Origin: Frankia sp. AgB32
GTDB taxonomy: Bacteria > Actinomycetota > Actinomycetes > Frankiales > Frankiaceae
Length of the DNA: 40,272 nt
Assembly: GCF_023243045.1 (NCBI RefSeq)
Contig: NZ_JALKFX010000006.1
Location: forward strand, 69,444 to 109,715
Direction of reading: 5' to 3'
Translations under genes and position numbers: made by a program
The notes under the pieces: generated by a model
What the model was told of the DNA's origin: nothing
Databases searched by the model: none
The model's input: the letters and a program-made list of their open reading frames with translations, nothing else
Part shown: positions 1 to 24,394 of the stretch, piece after piece
How positions within the stretch are numbered: position 1 is the first letter of the stretch
Layout: each line of letters opens with the position of its first letter

Positions 1-13
1 CGGAGATGTGTAT
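1..13. other. probable sequencing-adapter remnant at contig edge
   Basis: The first 13 bases, CGGAGATGTGTAT, equal a stretch of the Nextera/Tn5 read-2 transposase adapter as I remember it, where these bases run into the mosaic end. The identity stops at base 14. Because it lies exactly at the window edge I read it as residual adapter, not genome sequence. Chance identity cannot be excluded from 13 bases. Confidence 0.55.
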
Positions 14-167: not shown

Positions 168-1424
168 TCACCGCGGGCCCCGGACCGTCAGTGGGAGCCT
201 GGTGAGACCGCGGATGATGAAGCTGTGGTCCTGCCACGTGGGTTCGCCTTCCGGCCCGGGAAGCGGGGCGAGGTCGCCGAGGTGGTGGTGCAGCCGGCCG
301 AGAGCGATCTCCGCCTGGGCCCGGGCGAGCACGCCGCCCAGGCAGCCGTGCATGCCGTGGCCGAAGGCGAGATGGTCGCGGGTGTCGCGGGTGAGGTCGA
401 ACTCGTCCGGCCGGTCGAACACGGCCGGGTCGCGGCCGGTCGCGCCGAGGCAGAGCAGCACCTCGTCGCCGGCGCGGATCCACTCGCCGCCGATTTCGAC
501 GTCGCGGGTGGCGAGCCGCTTGGTGAGCTGCAACGGCGGGTCGTGGCGCAGGGTCTCGCCGACCGCGGCGGCGGTCAGCTCCGGGCGCCGGCGCAGCAGC
601 GCGCCCTGGTCGGGATGGGTCACCAGCCCGAGCACGGCGTTGCCGAGCAGCGACGCGGTCGTCTCGACCCCGGCGACGAAGCACATCACGCAGACGAAGG
701 CGATCTCCTCGTCGTCCAGCCGGTCGCCAGCGCCGGTGCGGGCGGCGAGCAGCCGGCTGAGGAGGTCCTCGCCGGGCCGGGCGCGGCGCTGCGCGATCAC
801 GTCGGCGAGCGCGGCGACGAAGCCGTCGAGCACCTCGCGTACCCGGGTGAGGTCGTCGGCGCGCATCAGCCCCGGTTCGAGGATGAACCGGATGTCATGC
901 GTCCACCCGCCGACGAGGGGCCGCACGTCCGCGGGCAGGCCCAGCCAGTCACCCATCACCGCGAGCGGCAGCGGGGCGGCGAGGTCGGTGACGGCGTCGA
1001 AGCCGCCGTCGGCGTGGGCGCGGGCGAGCAGCCGGTCGGCCGCGGCGGTGATCCGCGGCCGCAGCGCGTCGAGGGCCTTCGCGGTGAACACCGGGTTGAC
1101 CAGCGCGCGCAACCGCCCGTGGTCCGGCTCGTCGGTGAACACCAGCGAGGACACGCTGAGCCGGTGGAGCCGGCGGGTGTCCGGCACGCCGAGCCGGTCG
1201 GCCTGCCGGCGGATCTGGCGCGGGATGAGGCCGGCGCTGAACGTCCGGTCCCGCAGCACCGCCCGCACGTCGGCGTGCCGGGTGAGCACCCACATGCCGA
1301 GGGTGCGGTGGACGGGCCGGTGTTCGCGCAGGCGACGGTACATCGGGTACGGATCGCGGCGGAACTCGGCGCTGAACGGGTTGAACCGTACCGGCGCCGC
1401 CGCCGTGGACGCGCCGGTCGTCAT
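168..1424 (-). CDS. cytochrome P450 (CYP), 418 aa
   Basis: Bacterial class I cytochrome P450, a soluble haem monooxygenase that needs a ferredoxin and reductase encoded elsewhere. Visible hallmarks: I-helix AGVETT at residues 251-256, K-helix ETLR at 290-293, and the haem loop FGHGMHGC at 354-361 with Cys361 as axial ligand. The length is normal for the family. The start is the ATG at 1424, which overlaps the stop of the upstream methyltransferase in ATGA (1424-1421), implying translational coupling. Longer in-frame reading upstream lies inside the methyltransferase gene and is a shadow. By context it probably hydroxylates or desaturates the product of the desaturase/ACP/methyltransferase genes. 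The substrate cannot be read from sequence. Confidence 0.93.
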   Translation of the reverse strand: MTTGASTAAAPVRFNPFSAEFRRDPYPMYRRLREHRPVHRTLGMWVLTRHADVRAVLRDRTFSAGLIPRQIRRQADRLGVPDTRRLHRLSVSSLVFTDEPDHGRLRALVNPVFTAKALDALRPRITAAADRLLARAHADGGFDAVTDLAAPLPLAVMGDWLGLPADVRPLVGGWTHDIRFILEPGLMRADDLTRVREVLDGFVAALADVIAQRRARPGEDLLSRLLAARTGAGDRLDDEEIAFVCVMCFVAGVETTASLLGNAVLGLVTHPDQGALLRRRPELTAAAVGETLRHDPPLQLTKRLATRDVEIGGEWIRAGDEVLLCLGATGRDPAVFDRPDEFDLTRDTRDHLAFGHGMHGCLGGVLARAQAEIALGRLHHHLGDLAPLPGPEGEPTWQDHSFIIRGLTRLPLTVRGPR

Positions 1425-2335
1425 GTCCCTGACCCGAAGTACGTCCGCGGGTACGGGCGAAACACCAGCCGGTACAGGCAGATCTTGCCCATCCGGAAGC
1501 CGAGGGCGCTCTGCCGCAGGTAGCGCTCGTAGCGGGCGACGACGTCGGGCCCGACGAGCTCGGTCGCCTCGGCGCGGTGTTCCCGCAGGCGGCGGGCCCA
1601 CTGCTCGCAGGTCCACGCGTAGTCGAGCCGGTCGTTGCGGACGAGGCGGGTCTCCAGGACGCCCTCGGCGGCGGCGGCGATCTCGGCGAGGGTCGGCAGG
1701 TCGGCGGCGGGAAAGATCTCCTGCTGGATGAACGCGCTGGCCTGTTCCCGGGACATGTTCGCGTAGGCGATGGTCTGCAGCGACAGCGCGCCGTCGGGCC
1801 GCAGCCAGTCGCGCGCCCGGGCGAAGAACTCCCGGTAGCGGTCGATCTTCTCGGCCGGGGTGTCCTCGGGCCGGGCGAAGTGCTCGAACGCGCCGATCGA
1901 GATGATCCCGTCGAACGGTTCCGCGGGGGTGTAGTCCCGCCAGTCGAGTGTGTGGACCTCGACGCCGGGGGGACGCTCGGCGTCGAGGTGGGCCGCCTGC
2001 GCGTCGCTGAGGGTGAGCCCGACGATCCGTGACACGCCATGGCCGTGCGCGAGGCGGCGCAGGACCGCGCCCCAGCCGCAGCCGACGTCGAGCACCGACC
2101 GCACCCGCGCCCCGCCGACGGCGTCGACGTGGTAGTCGATCTTGCGTTCCTGGGCGGCTTCCAGGGTGTCGTCCGGGCCCGCGGGCAGCGCGCAGGAATA
2201 CGTCAGCGACGGGTCGAGCCAGAGCCGGTAGAACGCGTTGCCGACGTCGTAGTGATGGCGGATGGCCGCAGCCGCCGTCGAGGCCGACACCGCCGTCGAG
2301 GCCGACACGGTCGTCGAGGCCGACACGGTCGTCAC
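1421..2335 (-). CDS. cyclopropane-fatty-acid-synthase family SAM methyltransferase, 304 aa
   Basis: Member of the CFA synthase / mycolic-acid methyltransferase family, which uses S-adenosylmethionine to add a methylene or methyl group across a double bond of a lipid acyl chain. Residues 26-48 carry the family opening (HYDVGNAFYRLWLDPSLTYS), residues 83-89 are the SAM motif DVGCGWG, and the C-terminus ends in the typical FRMGKICLYRLVFRP. At 304 residues it is close to mycolate-type enzymes and shorter than full CFA synthases. The GTG start at 2335 overlaps the ACP stop in GTGA. The first 20 residues are three near-perfect six-residue repeats (VSAST plus T or A) from an 18-bp tandem repeat. Substrate inferred: an unsaturated chain made by the adjacent desaturase, perhaps on the ACP. 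Confidence 0.9.
   Translation of the reverse strand: MTTVSASTTVSASTAVSASTAAAAIRHHYDVGNAFYRLWLDPSLTYSCALPAGPDDTLEAAQERKIDYHVDAVGGARVRSVLDVGCGWGAVLRRLAHGHGVSRIVGLTLSDAQAAHLDAERPPGVEVHTLDWRDYTPAEPFDGIISIGAFEHFARPEDTPAEKIDRYREFFARARDWLRPDGALSLQTIAYANMSREQASAFIQQEIFPAADLPTLAEIAAAAEGVLETRLVRNDRLDYAWTCEQWARRLREHRAEATELVGPDVVARYERYLRQSALGFRMGKICLYRLVFRPYPRTYFGSGT
2274..2327 (-). repeat. 18-bp tandem repeat, 3 copies, in methyltransferase N-terminus
   Basis: Three copies of an 18-bp unit (GCCGTCGAGGCCGACACC on the plus strand, with small changes) encode the VSAST repeats at the methyltransferase N-terminus. The unit is divisible by three, so copy changes would keep the frame. Confidence 0.85.
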
Positions 2336-2589
2336 GCCGCGTCGGCCTCGACGCGCGGGAACAGGTAGGCGGCGACCGCGTTGATCGTCGGGTTCTCGAA
2401 CAGCTCCTCCGGCGGCAGATCGACGCCGTAACGGTCCTCCACCTCGATCAACAGGGCGACGGCGACGGCGGAATCGACACCAAGCCGGTCGAAGGAGGCG
2501 TCCGGGGAGATCTTCTCCGCCGTGGTTCCCAGCAGCGTCGCGACATACGACCGGCACCACTCGGCGATGGATTCCTGGGTGTGCTTCAC
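2332..2589 (-). CDS. acyl carrier protein, 85 aa
   Basis: Stand-alone acyl carrier protein. The motif GVDSAVAVALL places the phosphopantetheine serine at residue 40, followed by the helix III pattern LPPEELFENPTINAVAAYL. Size and acidic character are normal. The start is the GTG at 2589, preceded on the coding strand by GAAAGGGG; it overlaps the desaturase stop (GTGA at 2589-2586), and its own stop overlaps the methyltransferase start. Such interlocking suggests that desaturase, ACP and methyltransferase are made in fixed ratio and may act on one ACP-bound chain. It is a carrier for a specialised pathway, not the housekeeping ACP, because no fatty-acid synthase genes are nearby. Confidence 0.93.
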   Translation of the reverse strand: MKHTQESIAEWCRSYVATLLGTTAEKISPDASFDRLGVDSAVAVALLIEVEDRYGVDLPPEELFENPTINAVAAYLFPRVEADAA

Positions 2590-3644
2590 GATGCCCCTTT
2601 CCCGGTGGAGACGGCAGTGTTCCCGGTGGAGACGGCGGAGGCCGGCGACGCCGGGGAGAACTTCGCCGACTTCGCCTCGATGCGGCGCGGCGACGGCGTC
2701 TTCAGCTCGGCGGCGAGGCCGAGCGCCGAGAACAGCCGGATGCACCAGATTCCCGGATCGAGCCGATACCAGCGCAACCCGAAGGACGGCGACTCGGGAA
2801 ACGCATGGTGATTGTTGTGCCAGGATTCACCGAACGTCACCAGCGCGAAGACGCCACCGTTACGGCTGTTCTCCCGGGAGTTGAACGGCCGGGTACCGAA
2901 CGAGTGCAGGAACGAGTTGATGGACCAGATGATGTGTTCCAGCACGAACATCCGCACCAGTCCGCCCCAGAGCAGGCCGGTCAGCGCGCCGTACCAGCTC
3001 AGGCCGACCAGCCCGCCGACCAGCGTCGGCAGCGCCAGCCCCAGCAGCACCCAGGTGTGGTAGCGCCGGGCGACGGCGACCAGGCCCCGGTCGGCGATGA
3101 GGTCGGGGGCGTAGTGCACGACGTTCGGGTACTCGTGGCGGCGCATCCACAGCAGGTGCGAGTGCGCCAGCCCGCGCAGCCGACCGGACAGCCCGCCGCC
3201 GGCGAGGTTCGGCGAGTGCGGATCGCCATCCCGGTCGCTGCACTCGTGGTGCCGGCGGTGCAGCGCGACCCAGGACACCAGGCCGCCCTGCCCGGCCATC
3301 GATCCGCACACGGTGAGGAACTTCCCCAGCGCCGGCGTCGCGGTGAACGAGCGGTGCGTGAACAGCCGGTGGTAGCCGACGCTGATCCCCATGATGGTGA
3401 TCAGCCACATCGCCACCAGCAGCACGATCTCGGTGACGCCGATCGGCCGCACCACGAGCAGCGCGAGCGCGGCGACGGTGCCGAGGAACGGCAGGATGTC
3501 GAAAAGCAGAAAGTGCCGGCGCTGCAACCGATGCACGTAGGGATTACTGATCGTCCTGCGACGCGGGGCACCGGCCGTGGCAGCGTATTCCGGGTCAATG
3601 CCCTCGACCACCACCCCGACGAGACCAACGGACTCGTCGTCCAT
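2586..3644 (-). CDS. membrane fatty-acyl desaturase, 352 aa
   Basis: Integral-membrane di-iron desaturase of the stearoyl-CoA/acyl-lipid delta-9 class. All three histidine boxes are present: HRLFTH (92-97), HRRHH (129-133) and HNNHH (276-280). Hydrophobic segments lie near residues 47-66, 71-90, 199-217 and 220-240. The ATG at 3644 has a GGGTGGTGAG ribosome site. It is first in a chain with overlapping codons to an acyl carrier protein, which raises the possibility that it works on acyl-ACP, as described for JamB/TtuB-type desaturases that pair with a dedicated ACP. The last 17 residues contain a seven-residue repeat (AVSTGNT, AVSTGKG) from a 21-bp duplication, a tail not needed for catalysis. 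Confidence 0.93.
   Translation of the reverse strand: MDDESVGLVGVVVEGIDPEYAATAGAPRRRTISNPYVHRLQRRHFLLFDILPFLGTVAALALLVVRPIGVTEIVLLVAMWLITIMGISVGYHRLFTHRSFTATPALGKFLTVCGSMAGQGGLVSWVALHRRHHECSDRDGDPHSPNLAGGGLSGRLRGLAHSHLLWMRRHEYPNVVHYAPDLIADRGLVAVARRYHTWVLLGLALPTLVGGLVGLSWYGALTGLLWGGLVRMFVLEHIIWSINSFLHSFGTRPFNSRENSRNGGVFALVTFGESWHNNHHAFPESPSFGLRWYRLDPGIWCIRLFSALGLAAELKTPSPRRIEAKSAKFSPASPASAVSTGNTAVSTGKGAS
2599..2636 (-). repeat. 21-bp period direct repeat in desaturase tail
   Basis: TTCCCGGTGGAGACGGC occurs at 2599-2615 and again at 2620-2636, giving the duplicated AVSTG tail of the desaturase. The spacing keeps the reading frame. Confidence 0.8.
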
Positions 3645-4127: not shown

Positions 4128-5312
4128 TCAGGCCGGTGCGAGCACGAGCGGCAGGCGCTTCAGCCCGGGCTGGTTGGACGAGTAGGTGCGGACCACGCCC
4201 GCGTGGTCGATCTGGTAGTCCGGGAAGCGGGCGAGCAGCTCCGCGAAGGCGATCCGCGCCTCCAGGCGGGCGAACGCGGCGCCGACGCACAGGTGGATGC
4301 CGTAGCCGAAGCCCAGCTGGCGGCCGATCTGGCGGCGGATGTCGAACGCCTCGGGGTCGGGATGGACCCGCTCGTCGTGGCAGGCGGAGCCGAGCAGCAG
4401 CACGACCCGGCTGTCCGCCGGGATCACCGTGCCGTGCATCTCGACGGCGCGGCTGGTCCACCGGCCGGTGTACTGGGCGGGCGGGTCGATCCGCAGCATC
4501 TCCTCGACCGCGCCCGGGATCAGCCCCGGGTCGGCGACGAGCTCCCGGCGCGCGTCCGGGTTCGCGGCGAGACGCACGGCACCGGTCGAGACGAGTTTCT
4601 TGACCGTCTCGTGGCCGGCGAAGGTCAGCTCGATCAGCCGGCCGAGGAGCTGGCGGTCGTCGAGGAAGCGCTCGCCGCCGGTGTCGTCGACGATCGGTGC
4701 GTGCACGAGCAGGCTGATCAGGTCGTCGCCAGGTTCGGCGCGCCGCTGCGCGACGAGGGTGAGGAACAGCGTCGCCAGTTCCTCCCCGGCCGCCACCGAC
4801 GCCGCCGGGCGCACCCCCGGCGTGTCGTCCGGCCCCCGGTCGAGCAGCAGGAAACACAGCTCGTGTACGCGTTCACGCTGGTCGGCGGGCAGCGCGAGCA
4901 GGTCGGCGATGATGGTCAGCGGCAGCTGGGCGGAGAAGTCCTGGACGAGGTCGATGCGGCCGCCGGCGCGCGCCGCGTCGAGCAGATCGGCGGCGACGGC
5001 GCGGATGCGGGACTCGAGTTCCTGCACCCGGGCCACGCTGAACCGCCGGGCGAGGATCCGGCGGTTCCACTCGTGCTCGGGCGGATCCGTCGTGAGCAGC
5101 GTGTCGAAGCCCTGCTCGATCCCCTCCAGGGTGGTGCCATGGGAGGTCAGGAACGTGTCGTGGTCGAGCAGGGCGGCCACCACGTCGTCGTGCCGGGACA
5201 GGGCGTAGAAGCCGTGGACGGGGCTGCGGTAGACGGGCGCGTTGTCCCGCAGCCAGCGGTAGGTGGGGTACGGGTTCTCCGCGATGGCCGGCGAGAAGGG
5301 GTCGTAGTCCAC
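4128..5312 (-). CDS. cytochrome P450 (CYP), 394 aa
   Basis: Second soluble bacterial P450. Hallmarks: I-helix FAGHET (residues 231-236), K-helix EMLR (271-274), haem loop FGYGIHLC (335-342) with Cys342. It is clearly diverged from the P450 at 168-1424, so not a recent duplicate. The start is a GTG at 5312 with GGAGCGACC just upstream. It follows the FAD enzyme by 74 bases on the same strand, so the two are probably co-transcribed with the carotenoid-oxygenase-like gene. Role inferred: oxidative tailoring of the same product. The redox partner is not in the window. Confidence 0.93.
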   Translation of the reverse strand: MDYDPFSPAIAENPYPTYRWLRDNAPVYRSPVHGFYALSRHDDVVAALLDHDTFLTSHGTTLEGIEQGFDTLLTTDPPEHEWNRRILARRFSVARVQELESRIRAVAADLLDAARAGGRIDLVQDFSAQLPLTIIADLLALPADQRERVHELCFLLLDRGPDDTPGVRPAASVAAGEELATLFLTLVAQRRAEPGDDLISLLVHAPIVDDTGGERFLDDRQLLGRLIELTFAGHETVKKLVSTGAVRLAANPDARRELVADPGLIPGAVEEMLRIDPPAQYTGRWTSRAVEMHGTVIPADSRVVLLLGSACHDERVHPDPEAFDIRRQIGRQLGFGYGIHLCVGAAFARLEARIAFAELLARFPDYQIDHAGVVRTYSSNQPGLKRLPLVLAPA

Positions 5313-5386
5313 GGTCGCTCCGAAGGTGAACGGTCAGTGGGCTGTGAAGGGCGAGAGGCGGTGACGATGCAGACGCTGTGGAGAGT

Positions 5387-6652
5387 TCAGGGGGCGCCGG
5401 CGCCGGCCGGCAGGATCCGGCCGGCGGCCGGGGTGCCGACCTCGTCGTAGAGCGCGGCCAGGTTGTGCGGGGCGAAGAACTCCTCGCTGGGATAGCCACC
5501 GCCGACCATCGTGAAGAACTTCTGCCGGTAGCCGGGGCTCTGGCTGACGGCCGTGAGGACGGCGCCGAGGAACGGCGAGAGGGTCAGCTCGGACATCGCG
5601 ACGGTCAGGTTGAACACCCCGGCGCTGTCCCGGTCGCGGCGCCGCGCGTACCCGGCGACGGCCTCGTCGATCGGCTCCGCGCCGGACAGGCCGAGGTGCA
5701 GCGCGTCGGCCAGCAGTTCGGCGTGGACGAAGGCGTCGGTGATGCCGTAGCCGGTCAGCGGATCCTTGTGGTAGCCGGCGTCACCGACGAGCGCCCAGCC
5801 GGGCCCGTGCGAGCGGCGGTAGTAGTTGTCGGCGTAGTGGATCGCGCGGAACGGCTCCTCCCTGCGGCCACGGGCCCGCAGGTCCGCGCCGAGGTCGGGC
5901 GCGACGTGGTCGATGACGCCCTGGAAGCCGGCGTCGACGTCGGCCCGGAACTCGCGGTAGGCGTCCCGTTTGCGCATGACGACGACCATCATCAGATCGT
6001 CGTGCGTCCAGCAGCTGGCGAACTGCCGCTCGTCGCGGGTGCGGTTCTGGTAATCCCAGTCGAGTCCGGAAAAGTAGGAGTAGTAGACGAAGCCGGTCGC
6101 GGGAACCGTCCGGTAGGCCTCGGCGCCGACCCGGGCGGCGACGACGGAGTTCACGCCGTCGGCACCGACGACGAAACGCCCGCGGAACTCGCGTTCGACA
6201 CCGTCGGAGGTGGTTCCGCGGATTCCGACGGCACGGCCGTCGTCGTCGAACAGCACGTCGTCGACACCGAACCGCTCGATGACCTCGGCGCCGGCCTCCC
6301 GGGCGGCGTCGACGAGCAGGCTGTCGAGAACGGTCCGCCGCGGGCAGTACACCTCGGTGATTCCGTCGATCGGGTCGGCGAATCCGGACACACTGAGATC
6401 GCCGTTGACGAAAAGCATCTGTCGCAGCGGCGGAACGCCGGTTTTCCGCAACCGGTCGAGCAGCCCCCACGCGTTCAGCCGGGCCAGCCCCGACTGGTGA
6501 AGGAAATGCGTCGACACGGTGTCGCTGGGGAACGACGCCCGGTCGACGACCAGGACCCGGTGGCCGCGGCGGGCGAGCAGCATCGCCAGCGGCGACCCGG
6601 CGCAGCGCGCCCCGACGACGATGACGTCGAACGACGGTGGGACGTCGGTCAT
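5387..6652 (-). CDS. FAD-dependent oxidoreductase, geranylgeranyl-reductase / PHBH-like, 421 aa
   Basis: Flavoprotein of the p-hydroxybenzoate hydroxylase superfamily, near the geranylgeranyl reductase-like branch. The N-terminal dinucleotide fold begins VIVVGARCAGSPLAMLLARR (residues 11-30); this GARCAG form is usual in that branch. The second FAD motif GDAGYHKDPLTGYGITDA lies near residue 290. The ATG at 6652 begins just before the Rossmann strand; more upstream in-frame codons overlap the preceding gene and look like shadow sequence. It is 31 bases after the carotenoid-oxygenase-like gene. It could hydroxylate an aromatic or polyene substrate or reduce isoprenoid double bonds; the sequence does not decide. 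Confidence 0.88.
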   Translation of the reverse strand: MTDVPPSFDVIVVGARCAGSPLAMLLARRGHRVLVVDRASFPSDTVSTHFLHQSGLARLNAWGLLDRLRKTGVPPLRQMLFVNGDLSVSGFADPIDGITEVYCPRRTVLDSLLVDAAREAGAEVIERFGVDDVLFDDDGRAVGIRGTTSDGVEREFRGRFVVGADGVNSVVAARVGAEAYRTVPATGFVYYSYFSGLDWDYQNRTRDERQFASCWTHDDLMMVVVMRKRDAYREFRADVDAGFQGVIDHVAPDLGADLRARGRREEPFRAIHYADNYYRRSHGPGWALVGDAGYHKDPLTGYGITDAFVHAELLADALHLGLSGAEPIDEAVAGYARRRDRDSAGVFNLTVAMSELTLSPFLGAVLTAVSQSPGYRQKFFTMVGGGYPSEEFFAPHNLAALYDEVGTPAAGRILPAGAGAP

Positions 6653-6683
6653 GCGGTGGCCTCCCAGAAGTCCGGCCGGTGCG

Positions 6684-8351
6684 TCACGAGTACCGCTCGA
6701 GCACGTCGCCGACCACGGCGCGCGCCGGCTGCGGCAGCTCCCACCAGGCCGTTCCGAGGTCGTCGGCGTAGGGGCGCCGGTAGCGCGCCGCACCGGTGGC
6801 GCGCCCGGTCGAGGCCGGCAGGTAGGCGGAGTGGAACTGGACGGCCAGCTTCAGCCCCGGCGCTGAGGCGACGGCGACCGGGCCGGCGCCGACCGAGAGC
6901 GCGTCGAAGAGCTGCAGCTCGGTGCGGTCGGTGTGGTGCACGACGAGCGCGACCCAGCCGGGTCCGTCGGCGGAGTCCGGGACGTACACCGGCGACTCCC
7001 CGGCGGTGCCGCTGGGGAAGGACCAGGCGGCCTGTTCCGTCATCGTCTCCAGGTCCAGGCAGACCAGCGACGACGGGATCTCCGCGGTGGGCAGCCGCTC
7101 GACCGGCACGGCCCGGTAGGGATGGTCCCGGTAGAGCTCGACGACCCGGGTGGCCAGCATCCCGGGGTCGCAGCCCCAGTAGGCCTGCCACAGGTGCCGG
7201 CCGTGTTCCAGCGCGGGGGCGCGCAGGTCGCGGCCGTAGAGCAGGGTCGCCCAGTGCCGGTCGGGGTCGAGGAACGTCCGGCTGTCGCGGACCTCGCCGG
7301 TGCGGCCGTCGATGACGTACCGGCCGACCGGGGAGGCGTCGACGGGCGCGGAGACGAAGCCGCGCAGCCCCTTGGCCACCGGCTCGCCGCTGCCCCAGAC
7401 CTGGTCGGTGTCGCGCAGCGAGTAGTTCAGGTCCCAGCCGTTGGAGTGGGCGATGTAGATCGTGACGTCGTCGCCGTCCTGGCGGTAGTCGGCGAAGTGG
7501 TGGAACGACTCGCGCGGCACCCGGGCGTGGGTGACGCCGACGGCGCCGCCACGCCGTTCCCGGGTGAGGTCACGCTTCGCGACGAGGTAGATGTCGGTGA
7601 ACGGCTGGTGCGGCCGGGTGCGGTCGCGCCCGGCGACGCTGCCCGGTTCCGGCTGGAAGCCGATCTCGGTGAGGATGACGTAGTCCTCGGTGACCGTCAC
7701 CTCGTGCACGCCCTGGACGAGGTGCGCGCCGGGCACGTACCAGGTGTCGATCTCACCCTCGCCGTCCCAGCGCACGATCCACAGCGGGCCCTCGACGTCG
7801 GTGCGCGACGTGCCGCGGGGGCGCAGGGTCGTGTTGCACCACCACAGGCAACCCTCGTCGAGGTCCTCGACGGGATGGGCGGCGGTGCGCACGCCCGGCC
7901 ACAGCGGATGGTCGACGACCTGCGGATACTCGCTGACGCCACCGAGGAACGAGGTGAACTCCAGGGTCACCGGGTCGACCTCGACAGGCCGCTGGGTCAG
8001 GCCGGTCAGCATCAGCCGGTCACCGAAGGGCTGCGGCGCCACGTTCGTCAGCGCCGGCCGGGACGTGGCCATCAGCGCGGCCAGGTCCGCGGGCGGCAGC
8101 GCCTGGCGCAGCCCGGCGAGGATGGCCAGATCGGGGGTGACGACCCGGGTCGTGCGCCAGTGCCGGGTGGCCAGGTCGATGTCGGTGATCATGCCGGGTC
8201 CGGCGAACATGAAATCGATGGCGTTCGGCTGGGCCGGCCCGATGAGCAGCGCCCGCCCGGAAATACCGTCCGGCCAGCGTCCGGCTGTCACCGTCAGGTC
8301 AACGTCGTATTCCGCGCTCGGTTCAAGAAGGTGATGCAGCGCGTGGTCCAT
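6684..8351 (-). CDS. carotenoid cleavage oxygenase family protein (RPE65/CCD type), 555 aa
   Basis: Non-haem iron dioxygenase of the seven-bladed propeller carotenoid-oxygenase family, which cleaves conjugated double bonds of carotenoids, apocarotenoids or stilbenes. Candidate iron ligands are His159 (AAHPVE), His216 (VHEVTVTEDYVI), His284 or 285 (FHHFADY) and His507 (QFHSAYLP), in the right order and spacing. The length is a little above bacterial homologues. The ATG at 8351 has GAAGAAGG seven bases upstream. It is the first gene of the minus-strand unit with a FAD enzyme and a P450. No phytoene synthase or terpene cyclase is in the window, so the substrate must be made elsewhere. Confidence 0.88.
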   Translation of the reverse strand: MDHALHHLLEPSAEYDVDLTVTAGRWPDGISGRALLIGPAQPNAIDFMFAGPGMITDIDLATRHWRTTRVVTPDLAILAGLRQALPPADLAALMATSRPALTNVAPQPFGDRLMLTGLTQRPVEVDPVTLEFTSFLGGVSEYPQVVDHPLWPGVRTAAHPVEDLDEGCLWWCNTTLRPRGTSRTDVEGPLWIVRWDGEGEIDTWYVPGAHLVQGVHEVTVTEDYVILTEIGFQPEPGSVAGRDRTRPHQPFTDIYLVAKRDLTRERRGGAVGVTHARVPRESFHHFADYRQDGDDVTIYIAHSNGWDLNYSLRDTDQVWGSGEPVAKGLRGFVSAPVDASPVGRYVIDGRTGEVRDSRTFLDPDRHWATLLYGRDLRAPALEHGRHLWQAYWGCDPGMLATRVVELYRDHPYRAVPVERLPTAEIPSSLVCLDLETMTEQAAWSFPSGTAGESPVYVPDSADGPGWVALVVHHTDRTELQLFDALSVGAGPVAVASAPGLKLAVQFHSAYLPASTGRATGAARYRRPYADDLGTAWWELPQPARAVVGDVLERYS

Positions 8352-10542: not shown

Positions 10543-13500
10543 TCAGTGCAGGCCGTTGAACGGGTACTTGGCCGGATCGAAGTTCTGCAGGGTGGCGGCC
10601 ATCGGCGTGGTCAGCACCGAGCCGGGATGGCGCTCCAGGTCGGCGAGACCGCGCGCCGCGAGAAAGTCCGGCCAGCCGAGATGCACCCGGGCGCGACCCG
10701 TCTCGTCGAGGGAGAGCAGGTAGGTGGCGCCGGGCGCGGCCTCACCCGGTGGGACGGCGAGCTCGCCGAGCTGCACCGGCGCGCCCTCGGGCGGGCAGGC
10801 GTACAGGTCCCAGCCGGCCGCGCCGTCCAACGGCGGCAGCGGGACGCGGGAGAGCACCCCGGCCAGCTCGTGACCGGGCAGCTCCGCCGGCTCGCGGGGG
10901 GCGGTCCGCACGAACGTCTCCGGGTAGGCCCGGGCAGCGTCGGCGGGCACCGGCAGCACCACCCGGCCGGTGCGCGGGTCCCGGCTGCCGGCGGCGACGG
11001 CGACGAGCGGCCACGACCAGGCGACCGGCGTCGGTGCGTCGTCGCCGCCCGCGCGCCCGCGCCCGGCCGGTCCGCGCCCGCCGGGTCCACCGGGTCCACC
11101 GGGTCCACCGGGTCCACCGGGCAGTGCCGCGGAGACGTCGTGGCCGACGCCGTCGACGAGCAGGTGCCCGCGGCCCACACTCAGCGAGACGGAGGCGGTC
11201 ATCCCGTCGTCGAGCCCGACCTGCATCAGCACCCGCGGGCCGCGGTGGGCCCGCCCGCCGGTGTACAGGGGAACGGACACGTCGTGGCCCCGCGCGTAGT
11301 CACGGACGCGGAACCGGGCCCAGTTGATCGCCCGGCCGGAGTCGATCAGGCGGCCCAGCTCGAAGTCGTTGCGAAGCAGGTCCCACTGTGAGCGCGCGGT
11401 GGGCCGTACGCCGCGGCGCCCACCGATCAGCGGGTCGCCGGTGCGCAGCAGGATGTCCTTGACCCCACCGGCCTCAAGCGGCCCGAAGGACGCCGGCAGG
11501 CGGGTGAACAGCGCGTCGGTCTCGATCTGCAGCCCGCCGTGCGACCCGATGACGTCGATGTCCGGGTTGCGGCCGGCCGAGTACCGCTTGTTGTGCTGGT
11601 AACCCACCGCCCACGCCACGCCCATCGACACGGCCTCCTTGGCGGCCTTGCGTTCGACCACGACCGCGTCGTCGTTCCAGACCAGCGGCACCCGGGCGCG
11701 CAGATCGGTCCGGGCGAGGCGGTCGACGACGGCGTCGCGCACCATCGGCATCGCGCTGGTGCGCCCGCACAGGGCCACCTGGTCCAGGCGCGGGGGGTCG
11801 GCTCCGTCGTCGGCGTTGAAGACACCGACGACGAGGTCGGCCGCGATGCTGGCAGCCCGCCGCACCACGGGACCGGCCACCTTCGCGAAGTCCTCGACGC
11901 GCAGCGACAGGTCGATGGGCGGCGCCGTGGCGAACCGTGGGGGCAGCGCGACGAGGGTCTGCGCGTTGCGGATCGTGAAGGGTCGCTCCTGGTCGGGCTG
12001 GCCGAGCATGGTCTTGGCCTCCTCGGACTTCTCCCAGAGGGTGTCGAACAGGGCCGCGTTCTGCTCACCGCGGGTGGGCACAAGCTCGTGGAGCAGGCGG
12101 GCGACCTCCGGCGGCACCGGCTTGTCCACACCCTGGTCGAGGACGCGCGCGGTCAGTGAGCGGGTGGCCTGGCCGGCGACGTCGTCCGGCGCGTCCGGCG
12201 CGTCGGGGGTGACCGCCGACGGCGCCGTCGCGGCCGCCTGCCCGGCCTCCCAGGCGAGCAGCCGGTCGGCCAGCATCGCCTTGATCCAGTACAGCACCCG
12301 CAGGGTGATGTAGTTGCCGCCGAGCTGGGGATCGCCGGTGGCGCCGAGCACCTCGGGGCGCAGTTCCAGGCGGCGGCCGCGGCCGCCGGTGGGGATCTCG
12401 GTGAGGTTGAGGGCCACCAGGGCGATGTCCGTGGTGCCGCCGCCGATGTCGATGACCAGGATCGTCCGCCGCCAGCGGGCCGGCCCGTCGCTGCTGCCGA
12501 CCGGGTGCGCGCCCGCCCGCAGGACCTCGACACCCAGCTCCTCGGAGGCACCGACGGCCAGCATGGTGAAGTAGAACGCCGCGCCCACGGCCTCGTCGAA
12601 CTCGCTCTCACTGGTGTCGGCCGGGTCGCCGGTGTCCGGGTCGCGCAGGGCCCGCCCGACGACCTCGGTGAGATGGTCGCGGATGTCCGGCGGGGTCAGG
12701 GTCGGGTAGGTGACGACGACCCGCCTCTGCAGCAGGCGCCGGGTCCGGTCGTCGGTGATCGTCCTCTTGATCCGGTCATCGGTTCTGGCGAAGGTGGACA
12801 GGTGCTCGCGCAGCGCGCCGTAGGAGCGCTCGACGAGGTCCGCGGTGGTGTGGCCGACAGCGGCCCGGGCGGCCTCGTCGCCGAGCTCGGCGATCTCCTC
12901 GATGGTCTCCAGCGGCAGCGGGGCGCCGAGCGTGCGGAAATGCGACTTGAGCCCGCGGACCGTGGCCACCACCTTCGGCGGCGGTACCTGCCGATGCCAC
13001 AGCCGTACCCGCAGGTCGGCGAGGTCGGTGATGTGCACCGCGCTGGACAGGGTGCTGAACCGCACGCCGTCGCCGTCGAAGGTCACCGGAAACATGCCGA
13101 CCCGGTCGTTGGGCGGGGTCGCGAACGCCGCCCGGTAGCAGTCGTCGCGCAGCCGGGCCAGCACCCGCAGCGCCGGCGTCGCGGGCTGGGCGACCACGTC
13201 AACGGCGGCGGCGAGGGCGCCCAGCAGTTCGTGGCGCTCGTCCTTGCCCTCCCCGAGTCGGTCGAGCACCCTGGGCAGGCCGTCGTGCGGGCGGCGCGCG
13301 GCCAGCTCGGCGGACACCCGGGTCAGGATCCGGGCCCATTCGTCCTCGCCGACCTCGGCCGGTGGTTCACCGCCGAGGACGGCGGCGAACCGCCTGGCCA
13401 TCACGTCGGCCTGGTAGGTGTCCAGCGGCGTGCTGATGTCCACTTCGTCGTGGTAGCTCATGGTGGCGGTGATCGCCGTCGTGCCGAAGTCGATCACAAC

Positions 13501-14016
13501 GAAGCCGAGGGCCTGCTCCCGCTCGTCATCCCGCGCACCGCTGCCGGCGGCGGCCGATCCGGCCGCGTCGGCCGACGTGGTGCCCGTGTGGCCGCCCATC
13601 GTCGTACCCGCGCCGTCCCCGGGGCCGGCGGCGGGCATCACCAGCCGGGCGGTCGCCTGGGTGACACCGCCGCCCCAGGTGACCGTCCAGGTGACCGGGA
13701 CCTCCCGCCCCGCGGCGCGGGCCGAGAGGGCCGCGGGCAGCCGGACCGCCTGGGTCAACGGGGTCGCCACGAACGCCCGCTGGCCCGCCTGTACCGGCCG
13801 GCACCACTCGGCCAGCAGCCAGCGGCGCAGCGCGTCGTCCACCTCGGCGGAGATGTCGACCTCGACGGTGGGCAGCCGCAGGCCGTCGACCTCGGCCAGC
13901 AGCCGCACGCGCGGGAGGTCGTAGCCACCGTGGGTGGCGCCGTGGCCCGTCGGATCCAGCGGGAACGGCTCGCGCAGCGCGGCGCCGGGGGTGGACCGGA
14001 GGTCGAACCTGCTCAT
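10543..14016 (-). CDS. giant Hsp70/actin-fold ATPase (SrfB-like), 1157 aa
   Basis: Cytoplasmic protein with an Hsp70/actin nucleotide-binding fold. Phosphate-1 loop VIDFGTT at residues 174-180, phosphate-2 loop DIGGGTTD at 523-530, and an adenosine-type GRTS motif near 750. The distance between the loops is far larger than in DnaK, so helical inserts of several hundred residues are present, and about 170 residues precede the ATPase core. A collagen-like GGP repeat near 970-985 links to a C-terminal beta-rich tail. Size and fold resemble SrfB of the SrfABC locus rather than a chaperone; no DnaK substrate domain is visible. The ATG at 14016 has GGAAGGAC five bases upstream. It lies 61 bases after the GTPase gene and 26 before the 442-residue gene. 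Confidence 0.85.
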   Translation of the reverse strand: MSRFDLRSTPGAALREPFPLDPTGHGATHGGYDLPRVRLLAEVDGLRLPTVEVDISAEVDDALRRWLLAEWCRPVQAGQRAFVATPLTQAVRLPAALSARAAGREVPVTWTVTWGGGVTQATARLVMPAAGPGDGAGTTMGGHTGTTSADAAGSAAAGSGARDDEREQALGFVVIDFGTTAITATMSYHDEVDISTPLDTYQADVMARRFAAVLGGEPPAEVGEDEWARILTRVSAELAARRPHDGLPRVLDRLGEGKDERHELLGALAAAVDVVAQPATPALRVLARLRDDCYRAAFATPPNDRVGMFPVTFDGDGVRFSTLSSAVHITDLADLRVRLWHRQVPPPKVVATVRGLKSHFRTLGAPLPLETIEEIAELGDEAARAAVGHTTADLVERSYGALREHLSTFARTDDRIKRTITDDRTRRLLQRRVVVTYPTLTPPDIRDHLTEVVGRALRDPDTGDPADTSESEFDEAVGAAFYFTMLAVGASEELGVEVLRAGAHPVGSSDGPARWRRTILVIDIGGGTTDIALVALNLTEIPTGGRGRRLELRPEVLGATGDPQLGGNYITLRVLYWIKAMLADRLLAWEAGQAAATAPSAVTPDAPDAPDDVAGQATRSLTARVLDQGVDKPVPPEVARLLHELVPTRGEQNAALFDTLWEKSEEAKTMLGQPDQERPFTIRNAQTLVALPPRFATAPPIDLSLRVEDFAKVAGPVVRRAASIAADLVVGVFNADDGADPPRLDQVALCGRTSAMPMVRDAVVDRLARTDLRARVPLVWNDDAVVVERKAAKEAVSMGVAWAVGYQHNKRYSAGRNPDIDVIGSHGGLQIETDALFTRLPASFGPLEAGGVKDILLRTGDPLIGGRRGVRPTARSQWDLLRNDFELGRLIDSGRAINWARFRVRDYARGHDVSVPLYTGGRAHRGPRVLMQVGLDDGMTASVSLSVGRGHLLVDGVGHDVSAALPGGPGGPGGPGGPGGRGPAGRGRAGGDDAPTPVAWSWPLVAVAAGSRDPRTGRVVLPVPADAARAYPETFVRTAPREPAELPGHELAGVLSRVPLPPLDGAAGWDLYACPPEGAPVQLGELAVPPGEAAPGATYLLSLDETGRARVHLGWPDFLAARGLADLERHPGSVLTTPMAATLQNFDPAKYPFNGLH
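11081..11116 (-). repeat. 9-bp tandem repeat, 4 copies, encoding GGP repeats
   Basis: Four copies of CCGGGTCCA encode the collagen-like Gly-Gly-Pro tract of the Hsp70-fold protein. Copy changes would be in frame. Confidence 0.85.
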
Positions 14017-14077
14017 CGGATGTCCTTCCGTTGCACGGTGCGCGACGGCCGCCGGGCCGCGCGGACGTCGGCGGTCG

Positions 14078-16630
14078 TCACAGCCCGCCGTCTTCGACGT
14101 GCAGCAGCTCGGCGAGCTGCCGCGGGGTGGGCACGCCTTCGGCCAGCCGGCCGATCCACTGGTCGAGCGTGCGGGCCACCTGCGCGAGCGTCGTGACGAC
14201 GTCGTTCTGCACGTACTCGGTCAGGCTGGTCTGGGCCGCGATGCGGATCAGGTTGATCGCGAAGACGTGCCGTTCGCGTTGGGAGCGGCCCGCGTCGATC
14301 CGCTCGTCGATCCGCACGACGTCCGGGTGCCAGGGCAGCGGTTGCGCGCCGTCGAACGGTGCGGCGCTCGCCGCGTCCGCCGCCATCGCGACCAGGGCGC
14401 CGTCCCCGTCGGCGCGGGCGACGCTGGCGAGCAGGTTCTTCGCCACCACCCGCATCTGCAGGTCACCGGTCAGCGCCCCGAGCAGCCGCATACGGCGGGG
14501 GCCGAGGACCCTGCCCGCCAGCGGGCGCAGCCGGTCGTCGGCCAGTCGCGCGCCCGGCACCACGAAGAGCTCGCGCTGGTCGTCCTCCCAGTCGCCGACG
14601 ACGTCGAGCAGGTAGCCCCGGCTGCGCTCGACCAGCTCACCGGCGGTCCGCTCGAACTGGGCGACAAGGACGCTGCCGTGGTTCGGGGCCGCTTCCGGCG
14701 CACCCGGGACGTCGTCCGGGTCGTCGTCGGGCCCGTCGATCGGGAACAGCGGGAAGATTCCCTCCGGATCCTCCTGCCGGTCCTCGCCGACCGGGTGCAC
14801 CCACGGCTGCTGGTCGTCCAGTGCGTCGGTGAGGGTCGCCCACACCGGCCAGGCGTCGACGGCTCGGCGGGCGTCGGCCTCGATCGCCCGCAGCAACGCG
14901 ACCGGCCCTTCCGCGCGCTCGACGACCAGCCGATGCGGCGAGCGGAACCCGGCGAGGCCCCGGCGCAGTCCGGACACACCGGTGCGCAGCTCGTCGAGCA
15001 CCTCCGCGAGGTCGCGTGCGTCGCGCGCCGGGGTCGGCTCCTGGCGTTCCCGGTGCCAGGCGAGGAGTTCGGCGTGGCGGCGCGCCGCCAGGTCGAGCGC
15101 GGCGGCGGCCTGACGCAACCGCGCGACCTTGTTCGCCACGCCGTGCACGCGGGCGTGCTCGTTGACGACTCTGCGCAGCTCCCCGAGCCCGCGGTCGTAG
15201 CCGTACTCGCTGAGCAGGTCGGCGACCCGGGCCGGGCCGGGCCGCTCATCACCGTCGGCGAGCGCCGTGCCCGCCTGGCCCCACCGCTCGGCCTCGGCGG
15301 CGGCGGAGCGCGGGTCGGTGCCTGCCGGCGCGCGCCCGACGGCGGCCAGCGCCGACAGCGCCGACACCAGCACCAGCCGGTCGGGCGCCTGCCCGTCGGC
15401 GAGTCGGCGGGCGGTGAGGTGCTCGGCGGCAACGAGGACCTCGTTGAGCAGCGGCGCCTGCTCGCGCAGCTCGTCCAGGGTGTCGGCCGGCGGGTCCGCC
15501 GGGGCGCCGACCCGGTCGAAGCGGTTCGCGGCGACGACGGTGGCCCGTTCCAGCATGTCGTCGGTGTAGCCGAGGCGGCGGAGCTGGGCGTAGTAGACGG
15601 CCAGCGGGCGGGTGACGGGTTTCGAGGCGCTCAACGTCGCCAGGATCGCGTCCGCGCCCTCCAGCTCACGCCGGCTGATGTGCAGGTCGCGGTTCCCCGA
15701 GCCGTCGGCGCCCAGGCCGGGGAAGTCGCGGATCTCCATCGGCAGTCCACCCAGCGCGTTCAACGGCCAGGCGTCCGGGTTCACCTCGACGGTGCAGACG
15801 ATGCGGCGGATCAGCGGAAAGGCCGCGCGCAGCTGCGGGGAACCGAGTTGCGCGGGCCAGCTTTGCGGGCGGGGACGGCGGCGGCGCTCGGGATAGCTCA
15901 CCGGCACCGCCGTGGTCGGCGGCAGGGTCAGGCCATCCGTGATCACGTCCGGCGCCGTGGGCCAGGGCGTGATGTGCGAACCCACGACCTGCGCCGGTAC
16001 CTCGGCGAGCGCGTCCCGCAGCTGGGTCAGTTCCACGGCCATCTGCCGGGCGGTCGTGTCGGGCCCGCCGCGCGGCCACAGCCGGGTGCGGGCCCAGTCG
16101 TCGAAGCGCTCCCAGCCGTCCGTCCGCGGCCGGTAGTCGCGCAGCCGGCCGGGGGCCAGCGGCGAATCCGTTCCCTCGGTCCGCTCGATGAGGTCGATCA
16201 GCTCGCCGAGCATGAACGCGAGGCACTCGTCGACGTCGTCGACGGTCATGAACTCGACCACCGCAGTGGTGATCCTGGTCCGCCCGTCGGCGCCGGCCGG
16301 CACCAGCCTGAGCACGGTGACGTTGCCCGTTGTGGGATTCTCACTCGTCGGGAGCAGGTCGGCGGCGCCCAGCAGGCAGCCGACCAGCGCGGACTTCCCG
16401 TTGGAGAAGCCGCCGATGGTGGCGATGGCCACCGGGCGCCCCGCCGCCTCGATGAGGTCCGCCGCCCTGGTCCTGATCTCCTCGCGCAGGGTCTCGAGCT
16501 GGCGGTGGGCCGCCGGCGACTGCTCGGGCGACTGCCCCGACTGCTCGGTCGGGGGTGGCGTGTCGTCCAGCTCGGTCAGCCGGGCCCGCGCCGCCTCCCT
16601 GAGCCGCGCGATCTGTTCGTACTCGGTCAT
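14078..16630 (-). CDS. dynamin-like GTPase, 850 aa
   Basis: Large GTPase of the bacterial dynamin-like class. G1 P-loop GGFSNGKS at residues 73-80, candidate G2 threonines in NPTTGNVT (98-105), G3 DFPG at 302-305, and G4-type NRFD at 369-372. The G2-G3 distance (about 200 residues) is unusually large and implies an insertion in the GTPase domain. The C-terminal half is helical and has no membrane-spanning segment. Such proteins assemble on membranes and remodel them. The ATG at 16630 overlaps the stop of the upstream DUF4407 membrane protein in ATGA, a strong sign that the two work together. In SrfABC-type loci a P-loop protein of similar size (SrfC) occupies an equivalent place. Confidence 0.88.
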   Translation of the reverse strand: MTEYEQIARLREAARARLTELDDTPPPTEQSGQSPEQSPAAHRQLETLREEIRTRAADLIEAAGRPVAIATIGGFSNGKSALVGCLLGAADLLPTSENPTTGNVTVLRLVPAGADGRTRITTAVVEFMTVDDVDECLAFMLGELIDLIERTEGTDSPLAPGRLRDYRPRTDGWERFDDWARTRLWPRGGPDTTARQMAVELTQLRDALAEVPAQVVGSHITPWPTAPDVITDGLTLPPTTAVPVSYPERRRRPRPQSWPAQLGSPQLRAAFPLIRRIVCTVEVNPDAWPLNALGGLPMEIRDFPGLGADGSGNRDLHISRRELEGADAILATLSASKPVTRPLAVYYAQLRRLGYTDDMLERATVVAANRFDRVGAPADPPADTLDELREQAPLLNEVLVAAEHLTARRLADGQAPDRLVLVSALSALAAVGRAPAGTDPRSAAAEAERWGQAGTALADGDERPGPARVADLLSEYGYDRGLGELRRVVNEHARVHGVANKVARLRQAAAALDLAARRHAELLAWHRERQEPTPARDARDLAEVLDELRTGVSGLRRGLAGFRSPHRLVVERAEGPVALLRAIEADARRAVDAWPVWATLTDALDDQQPWVHPVGEDRQEDPEGIFPLFPIDGPDDDPDDVPGAPEAAPNHGSVLVAQFERTAGELVERSRGYLLDVVGDWEDDQRELFVVPGARLADDRLRPLAGRVLGPRRMRLLGALTGDLQMRVVAKNLLASVARADGDGALVAMAADAASAAPFDGAQPLPWHPDVVRIDERIDAGRSQRERHVFAINLIRIAAQTSLTEYVQNDVVTTLAQVARTLDQWIGRLAEGVPTPRQLAELLHVEDGGL

Positions 16631-17943
16631 CCGTGCCGTCCTCCTGGTCCCGGCCACGGCGGGCGCGGCCCGGTGGGTCGCACGCCGTTGCGTTCGGTGA
16701 AGTCGATGTAGTCGAGTTCGGTGGTGTGCCACGCCCGCATCGCCGCCCGCCAGACGTCCGCCTCTAGTTCGCCCGCGTAGTTCCGCGTCCGGAACAGCCG
16801 CCGGTACCAGCTACCGAGAGCGGCGTCCTGCAGGGCGACGGCCTGGTCGTAGGGGGTTGGCCAGGCCAGGATTTTGATCATCAGGGGCAGCAGGTCGAAG
16901 ATGAGCAGCGTCGCCCGGATCACCCACAGCCACACCCGGCCGGTCGGTTCGTTGTGGATCACGTCGTCGAGGGCGTGCACCCGGGCGAGGAATCCGCCGC
17001 TGCGCTTCTCGTTGGCCAGGAACTTCTCGGACGGTTGTGGCAGCGGCTGCCCGCTGGTCTCGGCGATCGTCCGGTCCGTCTCGTCCCGCAGGCGGATATC
17101 CCCCTGCAGCTCCGCGTTCTTCGTGTTGAACTCGGTGACGAGCTCGTGGTACGCCTTGCCCTGCGGCAGGAACTGCAGCTCCGGGGTGATGGTGGGCGCC
17201 TTGGCCTCGACCTCGTGCCGTAGCCCGTCCACCACCGGCTGCTCGCTTTTGATCTTTTTCTCCAGCCCGTCCCGCTTGCTCTGGTCTGGGAGCAGCTCGG
17301 CGGCGCGCAGGCGTCGCTGCTCGGCGAGGATCCGGTTGTCGTGCGTGGTGACGAGCTTCTGGTTGATCTCGGGTGAGAAGGCGACCATCAGCAGCGCCTC
17401 GCTGACCAGGATCGCGGCGAGGATCGCCAGGGCGAACCGCAGCAGGTACTTCAGCGACGTCCCCAGCCGGGACGGCGGACGGCCCGACGGGTCCGCGACC
17501 GGGTCCGGGTCCGGGTCCGGGGTGGGGGTGGGGCCCGGGTCCGTGGCGGTGTCGGGCGCGGGCATCGCGGCGGCGAGCGGCATGCCGCGGGACCGCCGCG
17601 CTCGCCAGAAGCGCCGGGTCCCCGCGGCCCGCACGTGCTTGGGTTCCATCACGATGACCCGGTCGGCGGCGAAGACGAACAACGCCCACAGCAACGCGAA
17701 CGGGATCACCCACGGTTCGAACCGGTCGAGGACCACCGAGGCGAGAATCGTGAACGACGTCGCCGCCAATGTGGCGACCAGCAGCAGGAACAGCCCGTAC
17801 GCGGCGTAGAGCAGCCGCAGCCGGCGGCTGCCCAGCAGTGCCCGGTCCACCCCGGCGCACCACAGCAACAGCGCCGACGGCGACAGCGACGGCCCGGGGG
17901 GCGTCGCCGACTCCCCCGGCTGCGGAACGGACAACGCCGGCAT
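16627..17943 (-). CDS. DUF4407 membrane protein, 438 aa
   Basis: Integral membrane protein matching the DUF4407 pattern. Hydrophobic segments near residues 45-70, 78-98 (PFALLWALFVFAADRVIV, the signature strand), 165-189 and 337-360. Between segments three and four lies a 140-residue charged, coiled-coil-like region that is probably extracytoplasmic. A Pro-Asp repeat (PTPTPDPDPDP) at 138-150 lies in the cytoplasmic loop. The function of this family is unknown. The ATG at 17943 follows GGGAGAGGGGAGA. The stop overlaps the dynamin-like GTPase start (ATGA, 16630-16627). It is a diverged duplicate of the next gene upstream, sharing APTITPE, GxAYHxLVT and the final membrane segment. Confidence 0.87.
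   Translation of the reverse strand: MPALSVPQPGESATPPGPSLSPSALLLWCAGVDRALLGSRRLRLLYAAYGLFLLLVATLAATSFTILASVVLDRFEPWVIPFALLWALFVFAADRVIVMEPKHVRAAGTRRFWRARRSRGMPLAAAMPAPDTATDPGPTPTPDPDPDPVADPSGRPPSRLGTSLKYLLRFALAILAAILVSEALLMVAFSPEINQKLVTTHDNRILAEQRRLRAAELLPDQSKRDGLEKKIKSEQPVVDGLRHEVEAKAPTITPELQFLPQGKAYHELVTEFNTKNAELQGDIRLRDETDRTIAETSGQPLPQPSEKFLANEKRSGGFLARVHALDDVIHNEPTGRVWLWVIRATLLIFDLLPLMIKILAWPTPYDQAVALQDAALGSWYRRLFRTRNYAGELEADVWRAAMRAWHTTELDYIDFTERNGVRPTGPRPPWPGPGGRHG
17489..17520 (-). repeat. 6-bp repeat encoding DP dipeptides
   Basis: GGGTCC repeats about four times, encoding the Asp-Pro run in the cytoplasmic loop of the first DUF4407 protein. Confidence 0.6.
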
Positions 17944-17966
17944 ACTCTCCCCTCTCCCGTACGCGA

Positions 17967-18017
17967 CGCACCGTAGGAAGATCTGGGCCGACCGGGCGAC
18001 CTCACCTGACGTTGACG
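17967..18017 (-). promoter_or_regulatory. promoter-like element before the downstream DUF4407 gene
   Basis: On the minus strand CTTCCTACGGTGCG (17980-17967) contains TACGGT, a good TANNNT -10 element. Nineteen bases further upstream is an 18-base block (18017-18000, plus strand CCTCACCTGACGTTGACG). Both parts recur with nearly the same spacing before the upstream DUF4407 gene. There is no consensus -35 in between, which suggests activator dependence. The element lies between the two DUF4407 genes, so the GTPase/Hsp70 operon may have its own promoter. Confidence 0.5.
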
Positions 18018-18033
18018 AAGTCGGATTCGTCGG

Positions 18034-19002: not shown

Positions 19003-19041
19003 GTCGGTCTCCCCAGGCGGCGCGGACGTCCGATGGCGCCC

Positions 19042-19091
19042 CGCACCGTAGGAAGCCGCCGGGGATCCGTCGTCCTCAGGTGAGGTTGACG
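19042..19091 (-). promoter_or_regulatory. shared control region of the DUF4407 operon and cyclase-like gene
   Basis: The minus strand repeats the layout seen before the other DUF4407 gene: CTTCCTACGGTGCG (19055-19042) with a TACGGT -10, then after 18 bases the block CCTCAGGTGAGGTTGACG (plus strand 19074-19091), 15 of 18 bases identical to the first. The block contains the imperfect palindrome CCTCAGGTGAGG. If transcription starts seven bases after the -10, the palindrome centre is near -41.5, an activator position. The same block supplies TTGACG as -35 for the divergent gene. Confidence 0.5.
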
Positions 19092-19121
19092 GATACGACC
19101 CGGTCAGTTACCTCTGTCGCA
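19086..19121 (+). promoter_or_regulatory. predicted promoter of a leaderless mRNA for the cyclase-like gene
   Basis: TTGACG (19086-19091), a 17-base spacer, then TACCTC (19109-19114), close to SigA consensus apart from the last -10 base. The expected transcription start falls at about 19120-19121, exactly on the ATG. There is no Shine-Dalgarno sequence before this ATG, so a leaderless transcript is the natural reading. Confidence 0.6.
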
Positions 19122-19918: not shown

Positions 19919-19928
19919 CAGCCGCCCT

Positions 19929-19964
19929 CGCCCGGCGGGTACCGGCTCAGGTGCCCGTCGGGCG
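19929..19964. terminator. bidirectional terminator hairpin, 15-bp stem
   Basis: CGCCCGGCGGGTACC (19929-19943) pairs with GGTGCCCGTCGGGCG (19950-19964) over 15 pairs, two of them G-U in RNA, around a six-base loop. It lies between two convergent genes, and the stop codon of the minus-strand gene is in the loop. Confidence 0.65.
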
Positions 19965-20717: not shown

Positions 20718-20786
20718 TTCCCCCCATTGGCTACCAGACGTGTTGAGAATACGGACGGCACGCATCAACGGCGACGGGGGATGCCG

Positions 20787-24324: not shown

Positions 24325-24394
24325 CGCGAGCCCGTCACCGCCGCCACCTCCGCACCGCGCCCGGCCACCCGCCGAGGCGAGGCCACCTTCTCCC

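Follow-up and report, generated by a model that had tools for sequence, protein, structure and literature searches.

The left end of a 40,272-nucleotide stretch of the Frankia sp. AgB32 genome (the window; contig NZ_JALKFX010000006.1, G000:C241:69444-109715) carries four minus-strand genes at positions 168-3644 encoding a membrane fatty-acid desaturase, an acyl carrier protein (ACP), a CMAS-family methyltransferase and a cytochrome P450. These genes are the first four of a six-gene operon that continues beyond the window with a thioesterase and a fatty acyl-AMP ligase (FAAL). The operon probably tailors a fatty acid on its dedicated ACP, with the FAAL loading the line, and we give this scheme as a whole a probability of about 0.7 from sequence comparison. 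In the best reading, the pathway would be related to the jamABC and polyyne cassettes, with insertion of a methyl or cyclopropane group replacing further desaturation.

The desaturase (352 amino acids; 2586-3644) was identified by PF00487 (FA_desaturase; E 1.2e-26), alignment, three His boxes and its place in a FAAL-linked group of a quick tree. The ACP (85 amino acids; 2332-2589) matched PF00550 (PP-binding; E 4.5e-19), the methyltransferase (304 amino acids; 1421-2335) was assigned by PF02353 (CMAS; E 1.1e-63), a residue table and a tree, and the P450 (418 amino acids; 168-1424) by PF00067 (p450; E 2.4e-31) and its motifs. Adjacent genes share GTGA at 2586-2589 (desaturase/ACP), GTGA at 2332-2335 (ACP/CMAS) and ATGA at 1421-1424 (CMAS/P450); Pfam matches and junction sequence thus agree with the earlier note, which had described this chain and its three overlaps from the letters alone. 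A fourth overlap, GTGA at 168-171, joins the stop of the P450 gene to the start of the thioesterase gene, and a fifth, ATGA, joins thioesterase and FAAL in the left flank (L004). Four-base overlaps were therefore found at 5/5 junctions of the full operon.

The window begins directly after a 10-N scaffold gap, and positions 1-171 hold the first 57 codons of a type II thioesterase on the minus strand, recognized by the GTGA overlap and its translation. The body of this gene lies past the gap (L004:16673-17401), matches PF00975 (E 1.6e-40) and contains GHSxG and His motifs. The FAAL (578 amino acids) matches PF00501 (AMP-binding; E 8.6e-66) and has a DIP2-like C-domain by Pfam. Its best PDB matches were 7r7e-g (2e-145; labelled polyketide synthase) and 3kxw (1e-119; labelled saframycin Mx1 synthetase B), and the 15 top matches (E <= 5e-73) include entries labelled FadD23, FadD28 and FadD32 AMP ligases and 'fatty acyl-adenylate ligase'. 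The first match plainly labelled as another kind of CoA synthase, 8weu, appeared only at 1.5e-27. We take the 7r7 entries and 3kxw to be FAALs, and 5d6j/5icr, labelled 'acyl-CoA synthase', to be FadD32; partly by these assumed identities, the nearest solved relatives of the protein are FAALs and not acyl-CoA ligases.

The chain had been described as lacking a ligase, a claim that was not borne out. The absence is an artefact of the edge, because the window starts after the gap, the thioesterase is cut there and the FAAL lies beyond; the acyl-ACP ligase that was to be sought elsewhere in the genome is the sixth gene of the same operon. This case shows that a false 'missing gene' can arise from a window edge. 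An SRPBCC/AHSA1-like frame (PF08327, E 9e-6; start not placed) overlaps the end of the FAAL gene; it was matched solely in L004 among 19 loci searched and is not counted as part of the operon. Window positions 1-13, directly after the gap, read CGGAGATGTGTAT. We take this sequence to resemble a Nextera transposon end, so the first bases of the window may be an adapter remnant.

Conservation was assessed in genomes of the same family, where loci L035-L050 were read together with the AgB32 copy. Desaturase orthologs (E <= 1e-100) were detected in 16/35 genomes, AgB32 included, and G003 has a broken copy. The order desaturase-ACP-CMAS-P450 is kept in AgB32 and in 14/15 relatives with an unbroken desaturase gene; in the remaining one (L049) the contig ends inside that gene. 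With an order that persists at identities of about 59-93%, the four genes are not chance neighbors, which answers the question of whether relatives carry the same chain. A FAAL gene comes next in AgB32 and 13 relatives, that is, in 14/14 copies where the contig continues (L035 ends after the P450 gene). Four-base overlaps occur at all five junctions in L036 and at 22/56 well-placed junctions in L035-L048, with gene ends chosen by script. A thioesterase is kept in 14/14: six copies have the type II enzyme (AgB32, L036, L037, L040, L047, and L048), nine have a 4HBT hotdog thioesterase directly after the FAAL (L038, L039, and L041-L047), and one has both. Catalytic motifs are mostly kept; the heme site of L041 reads ALGHGMHGC, TTSGK stands in the FAAL of L045/L046, and in five relatives the His motif of the thioesterase takes the form GxHFF.

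A quick tree of 109 desaturases, a set without JamB and TtuB, is the source of all desaturase groupings and supports given here. The operon enzyme sits in a group of 48 rows (support 96), of which 29 are CMAS-linked, 14 are FAAL-only and 5 are neither. Within this group it belongs to a clade of 22 rows (support 100) comprising 20 CMAS-linked members, one FAAL-only member and one cut by a contig end. The second desaturase of the AgB32 genome (L002) groups with stand-alone desaturases, away from the operon enzyme. The suggestion of a JamB/JamC-type membrane desaturase that works on a chain carried by an ACP gains support from the presence of the FAAL it requires and from the grouping of the enzyme with FAAL-linked desaturases.

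The methyltransferase shares PF02353 with cyclopropane mycolic acid and cyclopropane fatty acid (CFA) synthases and keeps their Cys, Glu and Tyr (Cys48, Glu151, and Tyr239); it differs in having Gln187 (codon 1775-1777) where the bicarbonate-binding His would be, in its linkage to a FAAL and an ACP and in that no N-terminal lipid domain was detected. The bicarbonate ligands are H167, E140, and Y232 in CmaA1 (PMC9821293) and Glu239, His266, and Tyr317 in the Escherichia coli enzyme (PMC11387697). Thus, two of the three ligands are kept and the His is replaced by Gln. A residue table of 60 CMAS rows contained 36 with about 43% identity or more to the AgB32 protein, one of them cut short. Gln occupies the bicarbonate-His position in 35/35 readable rows of this set, Glu and Tyr are kept in 35/35 and Cys in 32/35. 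The remaining rows have His (16), Gln (6) or Ser (2), which shows that PF02353 members do not all retain the His. A careful tree was built from 59 rows, and the 34 of them grouped by an identity of at least 43% form one side of a branch with support 100/99. The next rows (L166, L169, and L175), which we take for mycolic-type enzymes, all have His, and three rows that we take to be BfaB-like (L171, L177, and L179) are placed elsewhere, away from the Gln clade.

The Gln was considered as a sign of methyl branching as opposed to cyclopropane formation, and this was rejected. Gln is also present in six rows outside the clade (L121, L127, L129, L173 twice, and L180), among which L121 has a DUF1365 neighbor and L127 an amine-oxidase neighbor. 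The BfaB-like candidates keep His beside a gene read by eye as an FAD oxidase (the neighbor in L171 matched no Pfam family). Because Gln occurs outside the clade and these candidates keep His, the residue marks the clade and not the product.

Gln-type CMAS proteins were also found at five loci reached without a desaturase bait, and a FAAL or ACP gene adjoins in 5/5. Three of these (L184, L185, and L186) are other loci of genomes already included, with their CMAS in the tree; L189 and L190 are from independent genomes of a 396-genome draw, and their CMAS proteins (45-46% identity, Gln motif) are outside the tree set. Near the CMAS of L190 are a member of the acyl-ACP desaturase family PF03405, a ketosynthase (KS) and an ACP. 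Two further arrangements were observed. In a Scytonema genome (G492), two loci (L184 and L067) combine FAAL-desaturase-ACP with three consecutive CMAS genes, so that a single chain could conceivably be methylated or cyclopropanated more than once. Elsewhere in the AgB32 genome, another FAAL-like gene (37% identity) lies about 1.7 kb away from the gene for a distant CMAS-family methyltransferase (G000:C240:3021-7122), a protein with Ser, neither His nor Gln, at the bicarbonate-ligand site.

Asp39-Ser40 of the ACP is invariant in 10/10 aligned copies, and phosphopantetheine is expected to attach at Ser40 (codon 2470-2472). The heme, I-helix and ExxR motifs of the P450 are all present. The enzyme is similar to P450BioI and other carrier-linked bacterial P450s at the family level and its motifs are intact; it differs in that its best PDB match is CalO2, the biotin-biosynthesis P450 3ejb ranks eighth, and the carrier link is a prediction. 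A search for this P450 in 396 genomes of the phylum at E 1e-120 returned the AgB32 genome alone among the matches listed (four candidates scored).

We infer from these assignments that each substrate is bound to the ACP, and in which order the enzymes act. A free fatty acid would be adenylated by the FAAL and loaded onto Ser40 of the ACP, and the membrane desaturase would then place a cis double bond in the acyl-ACP. The CMAS-family enzyme would add a carbon derived from S-adenosylmethionine at this double bond to form either a cyclopropane or a methyl(ene) branch, two outcomes that we consider about equally probable. CMAS chemistry needs an alkene, and the desaturase is therefore placed before the CMAS. 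The chain would be oxidized by the P450, a step whose place in the sequence is a guess, and the acid would be released by the thioesterase or, in some relatives, extended by a polyketide synthase (PKS). An oxidized fatty chain bearing a methyl or cyclopropane group, as proposed in the earlier note, is still the predicted type of product.

Related gene sets were found outside the family. The chain, together with a FAAL and a type II or hotdog thioesterase, was present in 6/6 actinomycete loci with 63-72% desaturase identity (Streptomyces sp. JJ38, two Nocardia, Tsukamurella, Rhodococcus, and Amycolatopsis tucumanensis), and the same order including the P450 was detected in the cyanobacterium Dendronalium (L063; 38% identity) and in a Xanthobacteraceae metagenome-assembled genome (MAG; L186; 43% identity). 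Desaturase-ACP-CMAS cores with other partners extend to Pseudomonadota and Cyanobacteriota and include those of Aquabacterium (L185 and L065), Burkholderia sp. TSV86 (L064/L188), Scytonema (L067 and L184) and the same Xanthobacteraceae MAG (L187/L092). FAAL, desaturase and CMAS, without a matching ACP, were detected in a Saprospiraceae MAG (L084) and in Nocardia CDC159 (L110). Named genomes were scanned with two short peptide patterns, and tblastn of the chain was applied to the best 80 of 588 relatives; of these 80 loci, 13 had this kind of CMAS, eight had a FAAL without CMAS (L062, L066, L069, L088, L089, L097, L104, and L113) and 59 had neither, five of the latter having a distant CMAS at 27-37% identity.

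These distributions suggest, at even odds in our judgment, a widespread and unnamed class of carrier-bound lipid pathways that combine FAAL, desaturase, ACP and CMAS, some of them with a P450 as well, and that span at least Actinomycetota, Pseudomonadota and Cyanobacteriota. In such pathways, the Gln-type CMAS clade would methylate or cyclopropanate ACP-bound alkenes to give new oxidized free fatty acids or PKS starters. No open-licence paper was matched to this gene chain, judged by titles and the starts of abstracts. In a 2025 review of FAALs (PMC11837247), the term 'cyclopropan' is absent and 'desaturase' appears once. CFA synthase genes were proposed for medium-chain cyclopropane acids in PMC6213206, the main text of which does not use 'acyl carrier protein'.

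Several observations weigh against carrier-bound tailoring or its generality. The desaturase of L110, although near a Gln-type CMAS, falls among stand-alone desaturases, and the 20 kb of L189 contain a FAAL gene without any desaturase match. The two solved relatives of the desaturase that were found, 4ymk and 4zyo, are acyl-CoA desaturases. The thioesterase gene spans the assembly gap in the AgB32 genome, and its continuity therefore rests on relatives L036 and L040. The relatives were mostly chosen by desaturase similarity. Finally, the chain appears to be rare, since AgB32 alone of 396 genomes of the phylum had the desaturase at E <= 1e-100 among the matches listed (at most five candidates scored).

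A different fate for the chain, in which the modified acyl-ACP is passed as a starter unit to a PKS encoded elsewhere and no free acid is released, is possible but rather unlikely. It is favored by a type I PKS gene upstream, on the same strand, in 4/16 same-family loci read, several other loci ending too soon upstream, and by PKS sequence that follows the chain in L065 and L185. The PKS of L048 lies 189 bp from the desaturase gene, and L043, L044 and L050 share one PKS at 82-84% identity. Domains were scanned in two of the four PKS loci, and those of L043 are KS-AT-KR-ACP-TE, with a GDPD-type gene on the opposite strand between PKS and chain. The claim that the AgB32 chain has no ketosynthase holds for the window and 35.4 kb to its left, where one 18-residue chance match at E 0.17 was the only hit; it does not carry over to the four relatives with a PKS upstream. 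The lack of a KS near the AgB32 copy argues against transfer to a PKS, as do the absence of a matched KS near L056-L061 and the presence of a thioesterase in AgB32 and all 13 full same-family copies. The operon in L050 (G003:C1:1661001-1681000) is decayed: its desaturase, P450 and FAAL match in pieces and its CMAS has two stops. The PKS beside it still matches over its full length at 82%.

It is highly improbable that the operon is an alkyne or polyyne line in which the desaturase is an acetylenase of the JamB/TtuB kind, and CMAS and P450 decorate the chain elsewhere. The jamABC cassette likewise encodes a FAAL (JamA), a membrane desaturase (JamB) and an ACP (JamC) together, and processes its chain as acyl-ACP (PMC8406139; PMC11837247). 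FAAL, desaturase and ACP also fit the published screen for alkyne potential, to which the polyyne screen adds two desaturases, a thioesterase and rubredoxin (PMC8406139); the same study describes 10 actinobacterial genomes with a P450 replacing thioesterase and rubredoxin. The AgB32 operon differs from jamABC in its added CMAS-family methyltransferase, P450 and thioesterase, and its desaturase clade is separate from the FAAL-only cyanobacterial desaturases L066, L069, L088 and L097. Bacterial polyyne clusters (caryoynencin, protegencin, and cepacin) share FAAL, ACP, desaturase and thioesterase with the operon but have three desaturases and mostly rubredoxin, in contrast to the single desaturase plus CMAS-family enzyme of AgB32. 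One desaturase was found in the window and 35.4 kb to its left, and a rubredoxin motif, searched with a pattern that we presume to be diagnostic, was not found there (the window, L003, and L004). Polyyne-type desaturases (L104, L113, L089, and L028), inferred as such from a FAAL-desaturase-desaturase layout, share the 48-row group with the AgB32 enzyme yet form two other clades. One same-family locus (L195/L028; G014:C112) has FAAL-desaturase-desaturase-ACP and then, at the edge of the contig, what looks by eye like the start of a third desaturase; its two full desaturases fall with the polyyne-type ones, and this locus is likely a polyyne cluster in a relative.

Modification of membrane lipids (tuberculostearic or furan fatty acids) with the ACP incidental is very unlikely: CFA synthases do work on phospholipid acyl chains (PMC11387697), but FAAL, ACP and thioesterase are linked here, the CMAS group is sister to the presumed mycolic-type rows with the BfaB-like candidates elsewhere in the tree, and the N-terminal lipid-binding domain DUF7884, found in 5/7 phospholipid-type CFA synthases scanned (two over the cut-off, three weaker), was not detected in the AgB32 CMAS, L158 or L166, nor in the other two phospholipid-type proteins.

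The surrounding genes were also considered. A P450, an FAD_binding_3 oxidoreductase and an RPE65/carotenoid-oxygenase-like gene, assigned by Pfam, stand in a row at 4128-8351 on the minus strand. They were rejected as part of the pathway: the oxygenase, the only one of the three searched, was present in 12/35 family genomes and adjoins the chain only in AgB32 and G007. It is on another contig or at least 0.4 Mb away in eight genomes (G004, G005, G010, G011, G012, G019, G022, and G029) and occurs without a desaturase match at E 1e-100 in G001 and G008. Farther right, at 10543-26778, genes for a large protein with a weak DnaK-like match, a dynamin-type protein, two DUF4407 proteins and a CHAT-domain protein are clustered. 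Rfam and tRNA scans gave no matches.

If the operon does tailor a fatty acid on its own carrier, the FAAL/ACP desaturase logic of alkynes and polyynes would extend to methyl or cyclopropane chemistry. It would also provide a carrier-bound system in which to test CMAS chemistry and what the bicarbonate-site His, which is Gln in this enzyme, contributes to it.

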